A stretch of DNA of 50,659 nucleotides from Actinomycetota bacterium (GCA_013152275.1 JAADGS010000057.1:1-50659), one strand, 5' to 3'. Counted from the stretch's first letter, positions 9,227 through 38,870 are shown. The notes: a model not told the origin generated them from the letters alone. Made by a program: numbers and translations.

Positions 9227-9247
9227 GCCTCCTTTGTGTTCGGAGGC
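9227..9247 (-). promoter_or_regulatory. Hairpin sequestering the thiB ribosome site
   Basis: In the mRNA, GCCTCC pairs with GGAGGC across a 9-base loop, burying the whole Shine-Dalgarno sequence just before the thiB start codon. The TPP aptamer upstream carries another GGAGGC/GCCTCC pair in its P3-like arm, which could exchange partners. This fits translational control. Confidence 0.65.
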
Positions 9248-9249
9248 CA

Positions 9250-9346
9250 GGCTGAGACAGCTTCCTACGCCGGCATTATCCGGTCAGGTTCCAACGGTCG
9301 GAGGCTCCAAGCCTCCTTCTCAGCCCGGTCAAACCGAGCTCCCGTG
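9250..9346 (-). promoter_or_regulatory. TPP riboswitch (THI element)
   Basis: On the minus strand the conserved core is present: GGGAGCTC at the 5' side, GGGCTGAGA, a GGAGGC/GCCTCC arm, then CCTGACCGGATAATGCCGG and CGTAGGAAGC. These match the CTGAGA, ACCTGA and GATAATGCCAGCGTAGGGA blocks of the TPP aptamer. It lies 27 bases before the thiB start codon, so it reads the thiamine diphosphate level and controls the importer. Confidence 0.95.
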
Positions 9347-9395
9347 CGATGTCGATTGTAGCGGAACCGGCGGGAGGGACGCGACCCCGACAAAT

Positions 9396-20847: not shown

Positions 20848-22000
20848 GTGGATCTCCCTTTCTGGTTCGGACATCGGCTCGAGAGAATCGAAGCTTCGTC
20901 ACCCCGGCAGGCCATCGGCCATGTCGCTGGAGCATCGACTTCACACACTAGGACGCTGTTGATCTAATGCCCGTGGCGGTCGCGATCATGAGCGTCTCGT
21001 GTCGGATTGCGCCACATACGGCAAGAGTTTGCTGCGAATCGTGAGTTGTCGGATGCGGCGGCGTCGTGTCGCCGGTGTGCGTTCTCGACCGATCGGATCG
21101 CTCAGGATTGCGTCTCGGAGTTGTGTCCACGGACGTCGTGTCAGCGGCCCGTTGAGGGTGCGTCCTTTGGGTGATCACCGCACTGGTCCCACAGGGGCGC
21201 GTAACCGGCCGTGTGAGGTCTGTGGTGACCAACGACAGGGTGGCCTGTGGGTGAAGAGCGAGCAGTTCGAGAGTGGCGGGAATGATGTGTTGCGCGAGAT
21301 GGTGCGCAGTTTCGCCGGGGGCTTGATGTCAGTCGAGGCCAATGCGGTGTGTGACGCGCCTCATGCCTTCCAGGTTGTACACGGTGTTCTCTCAGGGCAA
21401 GGAATGCGCCGGTGTGTGAGAAGATGTCCCCGGTAAAGCAGCCGCCAGGGCTTCCGTCCGGCAGCGACGACACGGTGGGTCGGAGGGCAGTTCGAGGCGA
21501 GCGCCATCGCCGTCACCAGGAGTCTGGATCCCACATTTCTGGCACCTTGGCCGGCAACGTTCGTGGTGTCGAGAGACTACTCGGGTTGTCGTTGACGAAG
21601 ATGTCAAGGGTCACCGAGCCGGCCTCGTCTCTTCGCTCGACTGCCTGCCGCCGGGACGATCGCCTATCAGCGTGGCGGGTTTTGCGATCCCCGACGCACC
21701 CGACGGACCGCATCGCGATCTTTCCGGAGCGTTTCCTCGCTGGTATCCTGAATTCGAGGTGATGAGGCCCGCCTAGATGCCGCGCAGCGGCTGATGGCTT
21801 CTAACGGACGACTGTTTGGAAGCTGATGGCGAGCGATAACCACCTCGGACCCGATTCGATATCCCTGATAGCTGCTGCACCGGGTCGGCGCGTCGTCGTG
21901 GCGGCGAAGCCTTGCACCTGGTTGTGCGACGGAGATCTTCGGTCGCCCGTCGACGTTGCTCTCATCCCTTCGGCATCTCTCGAGAAGGACGGTTCGCCAG
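20848..22000. other. 1.15-kb stretch without a confident gene
   Basis: No gene here convinces me. Open frames on both strands overlap one another between about 20950 and 21470. One minus-strand frame (20986-21174) reads as a plausible basic helical C-terminus (PWTQLRDAILSDPIGRERT) but has no start codon and is preceded by an in-frame stop, so a decayed gene or mobile-element remnant is possible. The right part should hold the promoter of the MutS-like pair; I could not pin one down. Confidence 0.4.
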
Positions 22001-23533
22001 GTGCAGTTTCATAGCATTCTCTTTGAGCAGCCTGCGGACCGTGTCGACGGCGATGCGCAAGATGTGCCCTCGTCCTTCCGAGACTTGAACCTCGATCAGG
22101 TCCTGGAGTCGATGGTCGAGGGTCGGGAGGAGTATCGCCTGGAAGCGTTCTTCTACTCGCCGCTGACCGCCGCCGAGCCTGTGCTCTATCGGCACGAAAC
22201 TCTGCAGGATCTCGAGAAGAAAGAGATCCTCGACTCCGTTACAGACTTCTCCGAGAGCATGCGGAGGGTGCGAGCCCATCTGGGTCGGGCTGCAAAGCTG
22301 CGCCACAAGTACGAGACGGAGCGCTGGTTTCTGGACGCGGCCGAAACGTATCTGGCCGCCGTGAACACCTTGAAAGAGAAACTCGCGCTCTGCGAGCTCG
22401 GCTCCCGCGCCTTGATGGGGCTCCACGAGTATCTGGAAGCCTATGTCCTTTCGCCTTACTTTTCGTCGTTCGCAGCCGAGACGCAGAAGGTGAAGGACGA
22501 GCTCGCTTCGGTCGTGTACCGCGTCCATATCAGGGGGAGTCGCGTCGAAGTCAGTCCCTACGGCGGCGAGCCGGATTACACACCCGAGGTGGAGCAGACA
22601 TTCGCGAAATTCCGGCAGGGCGATGTCGAGGACTACACGGTCAGATTTGTGGACAGGGCCGGGATGAACCACATCGAAGCGCAGATCCTCGACCTGGTCG
22701 CCCGGCTGAATCCAGCTGTTTTCGGGGCTCTCGACGACTACTGCGTTCGCCATGAAACGTTCCTGGACGACACGATCGTTCGATTCGAGCGAGAGGTCCA
22801 GTTCTACGTGGCGTATCTGGAGTTCATCGAGCGCTTCAAGGCGGCGGGATTGCCTTTCTGCTATCCGCAGGTGTCTTCCCGATCGAAAGATATCAGCGTC
22901 CGTGGGGCGTTCGATGTGGCACTGGCCAACACGCTCGTGCCTGGTGAGCGGGTGGTGTGCAACGACTTTCACCTCGAGGGGACCGAGCGAATCTTGGTGG
23001 TAACCGGGGCCAACCAGGGCGGCAAGACGACATTCGCCCGAATGTTCGGCCAGTTGCACTATCTGGCGAGTCTGGGTTACCCCGTACCGGGTAGTGAGGC
23101 GCGTCTCTTCTTGCCGGACCAGATCTTGACGCACTTCGAGCGGGAGGAGGATATCGAGACCTTGCAGGGGAGGCTGGAGAGCGACCTCGTGAGGATTCGT
23201 GACATTCTTCAACGAGCCACGAGCAGCAGCGTCGTGATCATGAACGAGTTGTTCAGTTCCACCACCGTGAAGGATGCGCTGGTCCTTATTGCGGCAGTGA
23301 TGAGCCAGATCATGGAACTCGGCGTCCTGGGCGTGTGTGTCACGTTCTTGGACGAGATCGCTTCTCTCGGCGAGAGCACGGTCAGCATGGTGAGCATGGT
23401 GGATGCCGAGGATCCGTCGGTGCGCACGTACAAAGTTGTCAGACGGCCTGCCGATGGACGCGCCTACGCCGTGGCGCTTGCCGCGAAGTACGGGCTGACC
23501 TACCCGCAGCTGAGAGGGCACGTGACATCGTGA
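22001..23533 (+). CDS. Divergent MutS-like ATPase, first of a tandem pair
   Basis: The 510-residue product has a helical N-terminal part (about 1-320) resembling the MutS core/lever domains and a C-terminal MutS-type ABC ATPase. There is no mismatch-recognition domain I. Walker A is TGANQGGKTT (about 334-343) rather than the usual TGPNMAGKST. Walker B is VVIMNEL, with Asn415-Glu416 where MutS has Asp-Glu. The signature is FSSTT. The position of the MutS switch histidine is Phe449 (VTFLDE). GTG 22001 was chosen because QFHSILF starts the conserved region; GAAGGA lies about 11 bases upstream. The stop overlaps the partner as GTGA. Cellular role unknown. Confidence 0.85.
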   Translation: MQFHSILFEQPADRVDGDAQDVPSSFRDLNLDQVLESMVEGREEYRLEAFFYSPLTAAEPVLYRHETLQDLEKKEILDSVTDFSESMRRVRAHLGRAAKLRHKYETERWFLDAAETYLAAVNTLKEKLALCELGSRALMGLHEYLEAYVLSPYFSSFAAETQKVKDELASVVYRVHIRGSRVEVSPYGGEPDYTPEVEQTFAKFRQGDVEDYTVRFVDRAGMNHIEAQILDLVARLNPAVFGALDDYCVRHETFLDDTIVRFEREVQFYVAYLEFIERFKAAGLPFCYPQVSSRSKDISVRGAFDVALANTLVPGERVVCNDFHLEGTERILVVTGANQGGKTTFARMFGQLHYLASLGYPVPGSEARLFLPDQILTHFEREEDIETLQGRLESDLVRIRDILQRATSSSVVIMNELFSSTTVKDALVLIAAVMSQIMELGVLGVCVTFLDEIASLGESTVSMVSMVDAEDPSVRTYKVVRRPADGRAYAVALAAKYGLTYPQLRGHVTS

Positions 23534-25041
23534 AGGTCTACCTCATGCACAGGGATCAAGACTTCGACGCGCAAGCGGAGTTTCCGTCGAACGCGGAGGA
23601 CCTGTCGCAAGATCTCGGGTTGGACACGCTGTTCGATGCCATGGCCGGCGACGACTCTTTTGTGCTCGGTATTGTGAAGAGGGCCATCTTGTCGAGCCTC
23701 GTCGATCCGGATGCGATTGTCTACCGGCAGGACGTCCTGAGAGATTGTCTGAACCATCCCTCGGTCGTGAGGGAGCTTTACGACGTCGCCGTGGGCGTGA
23801 TCGAGGCCGAGAGGAAGGTCTTTTGGGGTCTGTCCAGGGATTCGCCCGAGAGGATTCTTGCGAGATCTCTGCGCGTGCTCCAGGTCCTCACCAGTTCGCT
23901 CAAGAGACTGAGAGAGATTGCGGATCAGCACGGGGAAGAGTTCCGGTCCGAAGGTTTTGTGCGGTTCTTCGGGATGCTCGAGGCCGAGTTGACGGACGAG
24001 TACCTGAACACCGTCGATTTTCATCTGCGCGAGCTGACGTTTCCACGCGGCGTTCTGATCAGCGCCAAACTCGGCCAGGGAAACGTGGGTACTCACTACG
24101 TGCTCCGACAACCGTCGAAACAGAGTTGGACCGAGTGGCTCTTCGGTGGACACAACCGCTCCAAGTTCAGTTTCGTCATTCCTGAGAGAGACGACAACGG
24201 CTTCAAAGCTCTGGCGGAGCTGACGAACAAGGGGATCAATCGTGTCGCCGGCGCGGTTGCACAGTCGGCAGATCACGTCCACAGCTTTGTTGCCGTGTTG
24301 CGTGACGAACTGGCTTTCTACATCGGTTGTCTCAACCTGCACGAGGAGCTCTCCAAGAAGGAGGAGCCAACGTGTTTTCCGGTTCCCGTACGCTCGGAGG
24401 AGGTCGCGTTCACCACTCGGGGCCTGTACGACATTTGTCTGGCGCTGAATGTGGAAGCGAGAGTGATTGGCAACGATGTGAACGGGGACGGTGAGTCGCT
24501 CGTGATGATCACCGGCGCCAATCAAGGCGGGAAATCGACGTTCTTGAGGAGTGCAGGTCTCGCGCAGCTGATGATGGGTTGCGGCATGTTCGCCCCTGCG
24601 GAGCAACTTCGTATCAGCGTCTCTGCCGGCGTCTTCACGCACTTCGAACGGGAAGAGGATCCGACCATGAGGAGAGGCAAGCTCGAGGAAGAGCTCGAAA
24701 GGATGGAGAAGATCGCCGAGGCGATCACGCCAAGCAGCCTCTTGTTGTGCAATGAGTCGTTCGCCTCGACAAACGAGAGGGAAGGCTCGGAGATCGCGCG
24801 CCAGATCGTACGTGCCCTGTTGGAAAGGGGCGTCAGGATCTTCTTCGTGACCCACATGTTCGACTTGGCGGAGGGTTTCCAACGCCTCGAGGCCGACACC
24901 GCCTTGTTCCTCCGCGCCGAGAGAATGCAGGATGGTCGGCGAACCTTCAGGATGATCGAAGGTGAGCCCCTACCGACGAGCTACGGCGAAGACCTGTATC
25001 GGCGCATCTTCGGCACGTCTCCGAGTGCCGCCGGGGGGTAG
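23530..25041 (+). CDS. Divergent MutS-like ATPase, second of a tandem pair
   Basis: This 503-residue protein shares the architecture of its neighbour: a helical lever-like N-terminus and a MutS ATPase domain, no DNA-mismatch domain. Walker A is TGANQGGKST (328-337), Walker B is LLLCNES with Asn408-Glu409, and the signature is FASTNEREGSEIARQI. Unlike its partner it keeps the switch His (His442 in VTHMFD). Both share THFEREED before Walker B. The start is GTG 23530 within the stop of the first gene, indicating coupled translation and probably a heterodimer. Such paired proteins are known from many genomes but, to my knowledge, lack an established function. Confidence 0.85.
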   Translation: MKVYLMHRDQDFDAQAEFPSNAEDLSQDLGLDTLFDAMAGDDSFVLGIVKRAILSSLVDPDAIVYRQDVLRDCLNHPSVVRELYDVAVGVIEAERKVFWGLSRDSPERILARSLRVLQVLTSSLKRLREIADQHGEEFRSEGFVRFFGMLEAELTDEYLNTVDFHLRELTFPRGVLISAKLGQGNVGTHYVLRQPSKQSWTEWLFGGHNRSKFSFVIPERDDNGFKALAELTNKGINRVAGAVAQSADHVHSFVAVLRDELAFYIGCLNLHEELSKKEEPTCFPVPVRSEEVAFTTRGLYDICLALNVEARVIGNDVNGDGESLVMITGANQGGKSTFLRSAGLAQLMMGCGMFAPAEQLRISVSAGVFTHFEREEDPTMRRGKLEEELERMEKIAEAITPSSLLLCNESFASTNEREGSEIARQIVRALLERGVRIFFVTHMFDLAEGFQRLEADTALFLRAERMQDGRRTFRMIEGEPLPTSYGEDLYRRIFGTSPSAAGG

Positions 25042-25113: not shown

Positions 25114-25151
25114 TGTACATAGATGTCAATTACATATATACTCTACATGTA
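25114..25151 (+). promoter_or_regulatory. padR promoter with overlapping operator repeats
   Basis: TGTACA (25114-25119) and TATACT (25137-25142) are spaced by 17 bases and form a good -35/-10 pair; the start codon is 10 bases beyond, so the message is probably leaderless. Within it lie ATGT-CAATT-ACAT (25123-25135) and the palindrome TACATGTA (25144-25151). TACAT occurs three times. ATGT/ACAT half-sites are typical PadR operators, so autorepression is likely. Confidence 0.7.
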
Positions 25152-25526
25152 ATGCGACGTGGACCTCATCATGGACATCCGGGGCATGGTCACGGACCGG
25201 GCCCTCGGGGTGGCAGGCTTCTCGATGCGGGGCTGCTCCTGCTCATATCGAGAGGCACGTCCCACGGGTACCCGCTGATCGAGGCGATCAGGGAGGATCT
25301 CGGTCTCGACGTTCCCGATGTTGGGGCCGTCTACAGAGCATTACGCCGCCAGGAATCCCAAGGGCTGCTCACCTCGACTTGGGAGACGGGTGCGACGCGA
25401 CCCAGGCGCGTGTACACGATCACACCGGCAGGTCGAGAGGTTCTCGAGATCTGGATGCAGGGTGTAGAGGAGATGCGTGAGGCCTTGGAGCGACTTCTCC
25501 AGGCCTGGAAAGGAGACAAGCAATGA
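25152..25526 (+). CDS. PadR-family transcriptional regulator
   Basis: The 124-residue product has a His/Gly/Pro-rich N-terminal tail (about 20 residues), then the PadR winged helix: LLDAGLLLLISRGTSHGYPLIEAI, VPDVGAVYRALRRQESQGLL, GATRPRRVYTITPAGREVL, and a C-terminal dimerisation helix. The His-rich tail could bind a metal (inference). The start at 25152 is supported by the promoter ending just before it. The frame is open upstream to 25053, but that part would lie ahead of the promoter. The stop overlaps the next gene as ATGA, so the two are co-regulated. Confidence 0.88.
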   Translation: MRRGPHHGHPGHGHGPGPRGGRLLDAGLLLLISRGTSHGYPLIEAIREDLGLDVPDVGAVYRALRRQESQGLLTSTWETGATRPRRVYTITPAGREVLEIWMQGVEEMREALERLLQAWKGDKQ

Positions 25527-25789
25527 GATATCGAAGGATGAGACGCTTCGGCGGTCCCCGCATGTGTTGCGCGTACGGTCCCGGGATGGGATACGGGCGC
25601 TCCATGGCCTTCGGCTCCGGTCCCCACGGTCACCGGCACGGCGATTGTCGCGGCGGGTGGGGGTACGGCCCGTGGGTCGAAGATGACCCCGAAGTCCAGG
25701 AAGAAGACATGCGGACCTACGTGGCCGACCTCGAGGCCGTCGTCAAAGGGCTCCAGGACGAGATTCGAGACCTGAAGTCCAGGGTCTGA
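25523..25789 (+). CDS. Small Gly/Met/Cys-rich protein with C-terminal coiled coil (DUF5320-like)
   Basis: This 88-residue protein has an Arg/Gly/Met-rich N-terminal half with Cys-Cys and several His residues (GGPRMCCAYGPGMGYG, GPHGHRHGDCRGG) and ends in a short coiled coil (LEAVVKGLQDEIRDLKSRV). That layout resembles DUF5320-type proteins, which are often encoded beside PadR-like or metal-related genes. A metal-binding role is only suggested by the Cys/His content. It overlaps the padR stop (ATGA) and is followed by a hairpin. Confidence 0.7.
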   Translation: MRYRRMRRFGGPRMCCAYGPGMGYGRSMAFGSGPHGHRHGDCRGGWGYGPWVEDDPEVQEEDMRTYVADLEAVVKGLQDEIRDLKSRV

Positions 25790-26780: not shown

Positions 26781-28577
26781 ATGATCCGGTTCGGTTACTC
26801 GGAACTCCCTGCAAATGGAGACGACGCAGTGTTCCTCGACGGGCTCGTCGCCAAGCGTCACCGGGCGTTCGAATTGGCCTTCATCGAGGAGCTCTCGTGG
26901 AGCGAGCAGCGGTGTCGGCGGTTCGGTGACCTCGCGGCCGAGCGGGATATCCGCCTTTCGATGCATGCTCCGTACTCTGCCGTTCTGACGGTCGCAGACG
27001 AAGAACGCTCGGCGCAGTGCCTGTCCACCATCGAGCGCACGATGAAACTCGCCAAGGCGGCCGGTGCCCGGATCATCTGCGTGCATCTCGGCAACCGTCA
27101 TGGGAGGGACGGGGAGGCGCTCATGGAGTTGGTCTCGGAACGCCTCGAAAGGATCGCTCCGAAGGTCGAGCATCTCGGCGTCGGTCTCGGACTGGAAACC
27201 GCCGGACGCAGCAGCGCCTTCGGAACGCTGGATGACATTGCCTCGCTGGCCTCGAAGTTCTCGTTCGTCCGTCCCTACGTCGACTGGGCGCACCTACACG
27301 CCATCACTCGGGGAGGTCTGGCGGCAAAGGAGGCGTTCCGAGAAGTGCTCGGTTTTCTTCGGGAGCATTTCCCCGGATGGATGATCGACCCGCTGCAGTG
27401 CCAGTTCTCGGAGGTCCGGTTCGGGGAGAAGGGAGAGATTCGTCACGTTCGGTATGGAGAAGGAAGTCTGCGGATCGCCAATCTCGTCGAGGCCGTGCAG
27501 GAGGTGGACATCGGACTGGTCGTCATCTCCGAAGCCCGAGAGCCCGAGAGCACCGACGCGATGGCGCGAGAGCTGCAGCAGATCATGGGGAGACCGGAAC
27601 CGTCCGGCATCGCCAGACGTCTCGGGTCGGGCAGTGTCGAGTTCCCGGTCCCGATCCATGTCGCCCCGTCCGGATCCGGCTTTGCTCCGCTCGGTCTCGC
27701 ACATCCCCTCGTGCTGTCCAAAATCGACAAACCGTTCTTTCCCGACGGGTTCACGAAGGGGGACCTCATCCAATACTACGCGTCGGTCGCCCCGACGCTG
27801 CTGCCCCATCTGGTAGAGCGGGCCATCGTCATGGCGCGCTACCCGGATGGCAGCGAAGGAGAATCGTTCTACGAGAAACAGGCACCCGAGCATCGGCCCG
27901 ACTGGCTCCTGCTCGCCCCCATCTACTCGAAGCATCGTGGAGAGACCATCGAGTTCGTCACCGTCGCGGATCGTGAGGCTCTCATGTGGCTCGCTTCGAT
28001 GGGTTGCATCGAGGTCCATCCATGGCTCAACCGTCTGGGCAATCAAGACCGCCCGGATTTCGCCGTCTTCGATCTCGACCCTTCCGAAGGTGCGACCTGG
28101 GCCCAAGTCGTCGCGGTTGCCAAAGAGCTGAAGGCCACACTCGATCGTCTCGGTCTCGTCGGGCATCTGAAGACGTCTGGGGCCACCGGTCTGCACATCT
28201 ACGTTCCGCTCGACCCCGTGCACGACTATCGGCGGGTGCGAACGTTCGTCGGGACGGTCGGCCGATTGCTGCAGTCGGCGAACCCCGACGACATCACGAT
28301 GGAGTGGCATGTCGCCAAACGGGGGGCCAGGGTGTTCATCGACCACAACCAGAACGCCCCGGGCAAGACGATTGCCTCGGTGTACTCGGTGCGACCCCGC
28401 CGGAGTGCCCCCGTATCGACCCCCATTCTGTGGGAAGAAGTCGACGACGTGCAGCCGGGCGATTTCACGATCGCCACGATCTGGGACCGCCTGCAACGGT
28501 TCGGCGATCTCTTCTCGCCCGTTCTCGCAGGAGGGCAGACGCTCGACGCCGCCGAGGAGGCACTCGGGCTCGGATAG
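26781..28577 (+). CDS. Endonuclease IV-like TIM barrel fused to a LigD-type polymerase/primase domain
   Basis: This 598-residue protein joins two repair domains. Residues about 1-270 form an endonuclease IV-like (xylose-isomerase-like) barrel with probable metal ligands in MHAPYS (His62), VHLGNR (His102), GLETAG, YVDWAHLHA, IRHVRYGEG and ISEARE. Residues about 300-570 are a LigD PolDom (archaeo-eukaryotic primase fold): FFPDGFTKGDLIQYY, FDLDPSE with Asp431/Asp433, KTSGATGLHIYVPL and FIDHNQNAPGKTIASVYSVR. Known relatives excise abasic or damaged ends and fill gaps in non-homologous end joining. No ligase or Ku is in the window. TAGTCT lies 6 bases before ATG 26781, so it may be leaderless. Confidence 0.85.
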   Translation: MIRFGYSELPANGDDAVFLDGLVAKRHRAFELAFIEELSWSEQRCRRFGDLAAERDIRLSMHAPYSAVLTVADEERSAQCLSTIERTMKLAKAAGARIICVHLGNRHGRDGEALMELVSERLERIAPKVEHLGVGLGLETAGRSSAFGTLDDIASLASKFSFVRPYVDWAHLHAITRGGLAAKEAFREVLGFLREHFPGWMIDPLQCQFSEVRFGEKGEIRHVRYGEGSLRIANLVEAVQEVDIGLVVISEAREPESTDAMARELQQIMGRPEPSGIARRLGSGSVEFPVPIHVAPSGSGFAPLGLAHPLVLSKIDKPFFPDGFTKGDLIQYYASVAPTLLPHLVERAIVMARYPDGSEGESFYEKQAPEHRPDWLLLAPIYSKHRGETIEFVTVADREALMWLASMGCIEVHPWLNRLGNQDRPDFAVFDLDPSEGATWAQVVAVAKELKATLDRLGLVGHLKTSGATGLHIYVPLDPVHDYRRVRTFVGTVGRLLQSANPDDITMEWHVAKRGARVFIDHNQNAPGKTIASVYSVRPRRSAPVSTPILWEEVDDVQPGDFTIATIWDRLQRFGDLFSPVLAGGQTLDAAEEALGLG

Positions 28578-38678: not shown

Positions 38679-38734
38679 AAGTGGACTGCCGGCCTGAGTG
38701 CCGACGAAGTACGCCTTCATCCGAGGGTTCGTTC

Positions 38735-38870
38735 GTTGCCGCTGCGCCAGGCGACCTGGCTCGGCCCCGAGGGAGCCTCACAGTTGCGGGACAGCGCCGG
38801 TTTTCCACCGGACTTCGCTGAACGCTCGCGGCGCCTGCCTCACTGGACAGGCAGGGCGAGCATAGCGCGT
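38735..38870 (-). promoter_or_regulatory. Cobalamin (B12) riboswitch
   Basis: The minus strand has the aptamer core GAAGTCCGGTGGAAAACCGG, CGCTGTCCCGCAACTGTGAG, then the B12 box GAGCCAGGTCGCCTGGC (38746-38762). A GCCTG/CAGGC arm precedes it. TATGCT (about 38868-38873) could be the -10 of its promoter. It heads the binding-protein, permease and ATPase operon, so cobalamin should repress uptake. Confidence 0.93.

Follow-up and report, generated by a model that had tools for sequence, protein, structure and literature searches.

Genes named mutS were linked to a fluoride-responsive RNA in 2010, when Weinberg et al. listed mutS, as a DNA-repair function, among the genes with a crcB motif in their 5' untranslated region (PMC2864571). 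Why a mutS gene should lie under a fluoride riboswitch has been a question since then, and the annotation "DNA mismatch repair protein MutS" is misleading. Here we describe two overlapping genes, A and B, on a 50,659-nucleotide (nt) stretch of DNA from an Actinomycetota bacterium (GCA_013152275.1, JAADGS010000057.1; the whole stretch is called the window). Both encode MutS-type ATPases and, lying downstream of a probable crcB RNA, they fit the description of the 2010 genes. An earlier note on this DNA had stated that no function was established for such proteins; none has indeed been given yet, but the position of mutS downstream of crcB RNA was already in the 2010 report, and the note had missed an aptamer 190 nt upstream of A. 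The relevant passages of that report mention neither the pair, nor its Asn-Glu/Phe/His signature, nor the loss of domains I and II. A 2024 review leaves mismatch or DNA repair genes unmentioned (PMC11139923), and no later open-access paper containing both "fluoride riboswitch" and "MutS" was found, so that an earlier mention of the pair is possible; a conserved design with two asymmetric subunits seems not to have been described so far. Our analysis indicates that A and B very probably constitute a fluoride-regulated, obligately paired MutS-type ATPase that does not act in mismatch repair.

Gene A (22001–23533) encodes a 510 aa protein and gene B (23530–25041) a 503 aa protein, both on the plus strand, and the sequence GTGA (23530–23533) is shared by the stop of A and the start of B. 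Pfam matches MutS_V on the C-terminal third of each protein (A, E 3e-16; B, E 2.5e-21) and no other domain. AlphaFold models of both are good (predicted local distance difference test, pLDDT, 86.6 and 85.6 for the two proteins), and comparison with Foldseek and VIA-align matched both predicted folds, built of the MutS core with core/lever, clamp and ATPase, to MutS and MutS2. In the predicted structure, residues 15–498 of B map to residues 1–491 of MutS2 and to approximately residues 260–785 of Escherichia coli MutS (domains III–V); since this alignment starts only near residue 260 of MutS, the mismatch-recognition (I) and connector (II) domains are absent. No KOW/Smr tail is present either, as both proteins end after the ATPase domain and the Pfam scan gave no Smr match. 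The Walker A motif reads GANQGGKT in A (residues 336–343, 23006–23029) and GANQGGKS in B (residues 329–336, 24514–24537). HMMER alignments to MutS and MutS2 of known structure in the PDB place Asn415 of A (Asn415-Glu416, 23243–23248) and Asn408 of B (Asn408-Glu409, 24751–24756) on the Asp of the Walker B Asp-Glu pair, while Phe449 of A (23345–23347) and His442 of B (24853–24855) fall on the switch His. The gene overlap, the missing mismatch-recognition domain and these substitutions are as the earlier note had read them from the sequence. The note called GANQGGK an unusual core in both proteins; it is the usual form in B, but A proteins typically read GPNQGGKTT (66 of the 75 A rows aligned), so that the A protein of the window is one of the few with an Ala in Walker A.

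Conservation of the pair was examined in 80 named loci, which are the best 80 of 581 from a single genome-collection scan and are for this reason biased to close relatives. The scan patterns were the Walker A motif and the TNEREGS segment of B, and as they left out Asn-Glu, the switch His and the whole of gene A, the motif counts were not imposed by the search. The sample spans many phyla, archaea included. In every one of the 77 loci whose contig is long enough to tell, A immediately precedes B; rare adjacency, which the earlier note had named as a refuting outcome, was thus not observed. The overlap is exactly 4 nt in 58 of 63 full homologous pairs. Walker B reads Asn-Glu in 78/78 A and 81/82 B proteins, and the switch residue is Phe in 78/78 A and His in 82/82 B. 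A comparison set of six plasmids, 13 genomes of the phylum and the window gave the same picture, with a tandem A-B, Asn-Glu in both members, Phe in A and His in B in 20 cases out of 20. Among 396 genomes of the phylum, A and B are present in the same 15 and neither is ever found alone, and the A and B distances are correlated (Mantel r 0.91, no permutation above 0.30). The window genes have both the tandem layout and the Asn-Glu/Phe/His signature of the MutS pair found in fluoride islands. Altogether, the strict tandem order, 4-nt overlap, co-occurrence, correlated divergence and conserved asymmetry make it likely that A-B is an obligate heteromer, and from the unlike motifs we infer a heterodimer with unequal use of ATP. 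On a Rubrobacter radiotolerans plasmid (L025:6255-7890) the annotation splits gene A into two overlapping frames, so that the gene is frameshifted or mis-sequenced there.

A tree of ATPase domains was built by a quick method, and long branches were flagged in it for KamC and for a distant pair found on a human-gut contig. In this tree A and B form sister groups and are jointly split from MutS1, MutS2 and KamC with 99% support in the Shimodaira-Hasegawa-like approximate likelihood ratio test. The gut pair (L133:2599-5548) divides in the same manner, its members grouping with A (90) and with B (98), and it carries Asn-Glu in both members and the switch His in both. KamC (L135) and nearly all MutS1 and MutS2 rows have Asp-Glu with Thr-His, the few exceptions being motifs that the pattern search did not read. 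Judged from these alignments, the Walker B Asn characterises the entire clade, distant gut pair included, and is no peculiarity of the window locus, while the His-to-Phe change in A would separate the fluoride clade from the L133 comparator alone. The L133 contig is labelled Bacteriophage sp. and carries genes that, named by eye, are HydG-like radical SAM and phenylacetate-CoA ligase-like. A phage or viral origin of the pair was rejected, as no relative was found in viral_contigs and this single full-length "phage" match has bacterial metabolic genes.

The association with fluoride was assessed with the Rfam fluoride riboswitch model RF01734 (gathering score 34 bits). Matches at E ≤ 1e-3 occur in 38 of 39 pair-bearing genomes of many phyla, 36 of them over the cut-off, versus 4 of 14 controls. 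Within the 396 genomes of the phylum, 11 of the 15 with the pair have a match at E ≤ 1e-5, versus 69 of the other 381 (Fisher p 8.5e-6). A second, independent covariance model made from plasmid and phylum fluoride aptamers (R1) placed a same-strand aptamer ahead of A, at a distance of up to 600 nt (median 109 nt), in 38 of the 66 loci where this could be tested. The neighbourhoods point the same way: 23 enolase genes lie in the 80 loci (1.23 Mb), where a single-copy gene would be expected about 0.3 times, together with CrcB (12 loci), Usp (12), formate-hydrogenlyase or complex-I-like genes (12) and Na/H exchangers (10). An aptamer or a hallmark gene is present in 68 of the 80 loci, and nine of the remaining 12 consist of a contig no longer than 10 kb. 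The six plasmid loci hold 20 fluoride aptamers by Rfam, and their neighbourhoods include crcB, eno, ppa or a DHHA2 pyrophosphatase, phosphoglycerate mutase, CLC, DUF190, Usp, a Na/H exchanger and a P-type ATPase. On a Klebsiella plasmid (L026) the pair is convergent with the series P-type ATPase-crcB-gpm-eno-usp-ppaC, and for this gene set in Enterobacter cloacae FRM, knockout and complementation have established fluoride resistance (PMC5533749, which makes no mention of MutS). Since the pair adjoins fluoride riboswitches and resistance genes across bacteria and archaea, a fluoride-stress machine, and not a mismatch-repair protein, is the most likely reading.

Further features of these islands were recorded alongside. 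The gene order of the FRM fluoride operon equals that at L026:13586-20148, beside the MutS pair on Klebsiella plasmids. Dynamin-like GTPases recur by the pair in 18 of the 80 loci (for example L028:10560-12677, L064, L087 and L101), and transporters of the major facilitator superfamily lie near it in 26.

In the window, the leader of gene A holds a probable fluoride riboswitch aptamer (21749–21810, plus strand), ending 190 nt before the start codon. It is the top RF01734 match in the whole 3.07-Mb genome (E 2.3e-5) and scores 31.9 bits with model R1 (E 8.9e-9). All 13 pairs of P1, P3 and the pseudoknot are standard, and the conserved GAUG and GGCUGAUG are present (structure check on 58 sequences, 96.8% of cells paired); the pseudoknot has G-U and C-G in place of the commonest A-U and U-A. 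Going by its sequence, this leader would put A and B of this strain under fluoride control. The genome's second-best match (21439–21511, minus strand; E 0.02, RF01734 18.2 bits, R1 17.7 bits) lies in the same intergenic stretch in divergent orientation and could be the remnant of the 5' half of another aptamer. The evidence for such a second aptamer is suggestive only, and divergent aptamer pairs are also found in loci L055, L083, L087 and L101. No recognisable gene lies downstream of this half-aptamer before a catalase gene, and it may be what was left behind when a fluoride gene was lost.

The mechanism that we propose starts from an operon made of a fluoride riboswitch leader and two translationally coupled genes. 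Fluoride entering the cell would be bound by the aptamer and turn the operon on; A and B would then pair through their ATPase domains, like MutS subunits, to form two unlike composite ATP sites. In E. coli MutS, substitutions at residues 693–696, D693 included, are reported to cost ATPase and repair activity, and the switch His728 to be among the few residues that move relative to the ADP-bound crystal (PMC3848065). As both subunits here have the Asn but keep the Glu, hydrolysis is modestly predicted, by analogy, to be slow or conditional, and the A site should be the weaker of the two because it also lacks the switch His. The A site would thus bind and hold ATP with little or no turnover, while the B site would turn over slowly and open or close the ring of lever and clamp. 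The absence of mismatch-reading, connector and Smr/KOW parts argues for a target other than a mismatch. Tentatively, and as a conjecture that may well prove wrong, this target would be a machine arrested by fluoride, either an enzyme trapped with Mg-fluoride, such as enolase, or a nucleoprotein complex, which the pair would free or hold.

A DNA clamp, with A-B binding damaged, branched or stalled DNA under fluoride stress and protecting it or aiding its repair without reading mismatches, is possible but unlikely. Lever and clamp are kept and align with the DNA-binding core of MutS, the clamp tip of B has a median net charge of +5, and Weinberg et al. proposed a mitigation of DNA damage for genes under crcB RNA (PMC2864571). 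The clamp tip of A is neutral, however, domains I and II are missing, and no DNA-repair gene was seen among the recurrent neighbours looked for, in a comparison limited to seeded genes. Family searches also found no MutS1, MutS2 or MutL_C in the host genome, which counts against a clamp serving DNA and makes a mismatch-repair role of A-B very unlikely.

Several observations weigh against a fluoride-stress function. The aptamer of the window scores 27.2 bits with RF01734 (E 1.6e-4 in 5.2 kb) and falls short of the gathering score owing to its J1/3, which is UAGAU instead of the consensus AACC/AACU. No expression platform was recognised, there being no intrinsic terminator between the aptamer and gene A, and the leader folds no better than shuffled sequences. 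None of the seeded fluoride genes accompanies the pair in the window, where the aptamer stands on its own, and the crcB (Fluc) genes of the genome, two neighbours, are found on a different contig (G000:C8:4153-4826; L164, L165), with no RF01734 match near them. Across the sample, no aptamer stands immediately ahead of A in 28 of the 66 testable loci; among these are some with an aptamer at a greater distance upstream, or where the genes may belong to a common operon. The gut pair has no detectable fluoride aptamer in its 7.7 kb, and as it is paired and has Asn-Glu nonetheless, this comparison makes both the duplication and the change to Asn in Walker B appear older than the fluoride clade, so that pairing would predate the fluoride role. 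L133 points to another context in which such pairs occur, and the core activity may be general, with fluoride one of several uses.

In this genome the pair might be what is left, stranded, of a fluoride island, with a decayed aptamer and with A and B constitutive or unused, which we consider rather unlikely. The sub-threshold aptamer, the half-aptamer alongside, the lack of fluoride genes nearby and the absence of the pair from 58 relatives in the same order would all fit. On the other hand, neither reading frame is broken and no motif that is invariant in the clade is missing, the GC content of A and B (0.59–0.60, and 0.76–0.77 at third codon positions) is near the window values, and the aptamer has kept its pairs, those of the pseudoknot included. 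As this composition gives no strong signal, a recent transfer visible in composition was also rejected, the absence from the 58 relatives being the only sign of transfer.

An activity like that of Bacillus MutS2, by which A-B would split ribosomes stalled by fluoride-inhibited translation factors, is improbable. MutS2 has the same build of core/lever, clamp and ATPase, likewise lacks domains I and II, and splits stalled ribosomes by its ATPase, with KOW/SMR only partly needed (PMC10897456), and its core is among the best fold matches of A and B. These, however, form a clade separate from MutS2 and have neither KOW nor Smr, which recruit MutS2 to collisions, and the Walker B substitution E416A abolishes MutS2 function (PMC10897456), while in A-B the Walker B Asp is naturally an Asn. 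Returning to the fluoride-arrested target, it is a long shot that the pair is an ATP-driven fluoride reactivase that frees enzymes, enolase being the prime suspect, or machines from a Mg-fluoride-phosphate lock. In that reading, the Walker B Asn would loosen the hold on Mg2+ and thereby keep the clamp from being trapped with ADP-MgFx. The idea draws by analogy on the NCBI name of KamC, a reactivase, and on the enolase linkage; if true, it would add to export and target replacement a function that repairs fluoride poisoning. Finally, a heterodimer of MSH type that serves mismatch repair or recombination and has no link to fluoride, the model implied by the earlier note, is highly improbable, since its parallel with A-B holds as architecture (a heteromeric MutS core with asymmetric ATP sites) but not in the motifs, MutS1 and MutS2 rows being nearly all Asp-Glu with His, nor in a host without MutS1, MutS2 and MutL_C, and the missing domains I and II count against it, while the fluoride association already largely refutes it.

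Directly after the pair, as the earlier note had said, come at 25131–25789 (plus strand) a PadR regulator and, overlapping it, a Gly/Cys/His-rich protein weakly like DUF5320 (E 0.011). As partners of A-B both were rejected, PadR being near the pair in one of the 80 loci and the other gene in none, and the two are probably a small operon of their own. A defence system was likewise rejected, the PADLOC matches being weak P-loop matches only. Elsewhere in the window, one 598-aa protein (26781–28577, plus strand) has a LigD primase-polymerase domain behind a triosephosphate isomerase (TIM) barrel like that of apurinic/apyrimidinic endonuclease 2, and thiamine pyrophosphate and cobalamin riboswitches over the Rfam cut-off lie at 9245–9355 and 38732–38854, both on the minus strand.

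The pair occurs in many phyla, in archaea and on conjugative plasmids from Klebsiella, Citrobacter and Salmonella. With its description, what had been a loose association becomes a machine open to experiment, with one operon, two proteins, one inducer and named active-site residues. A natural and conserved Walker B Asn in both subunits would show how far ATP-binding cassette (ABC)/MutS ATPases can bend the catalytic rule.

Among known systems, MutS2 of Bacillus subtilis, Thermus and Thermotoga shares with A-B the core/lever, clamp and ATPase and the lack of domains I and II, and matches over nearly the full length of the fold. MutS2 is, however, a homodimer with Smr/KOW and Asp-Glu, whereas A-B has two different subunits and Asn-Glu and forms a separate clade, and the MutS2 family model of NCBIfam, TIGR01069 (cut-off 400 bits) is not reached (A 70.9 bits, B 60.3 bits). 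With MutS1 and the MSH proteins the pair shares the MutS core and ATPase and a build from unlike subunits, as in MSH2-MSH6/MSH3; it differs in having no mismatch or connector domains and a host without MutL and, from the MutS1 proteins examined, in an Asn for the Walker B Asp and the loss of the switch His in A. KamC, the reactivase ATPase of lysine 5,6-aminomutase (NF052383), resembles A and B as a MutS-type protein of about 500 aa with no mismatch domain, and it is named as acting on an enzyme. Orthology of A or B to KamC was ruled out by score (A 48.6 bits and B 64.7 bits, against a cut-off of 300), by motif, as KamC keeps Asp-Glu and His, and by the tree, in which it groups on a long branch with MutS2 and not with A or B; nothing relevant on KamC or KamB was found in open-access papers. 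A counterpart of the active sites, also among the fold matches, is E. coli MutS D693N (PDB 3K0S), in which the Walker B Asp was changed to Asn by engineering: what is a mutant there is the natural state of A-B, with Asn as the conserved wild type in both subunits.

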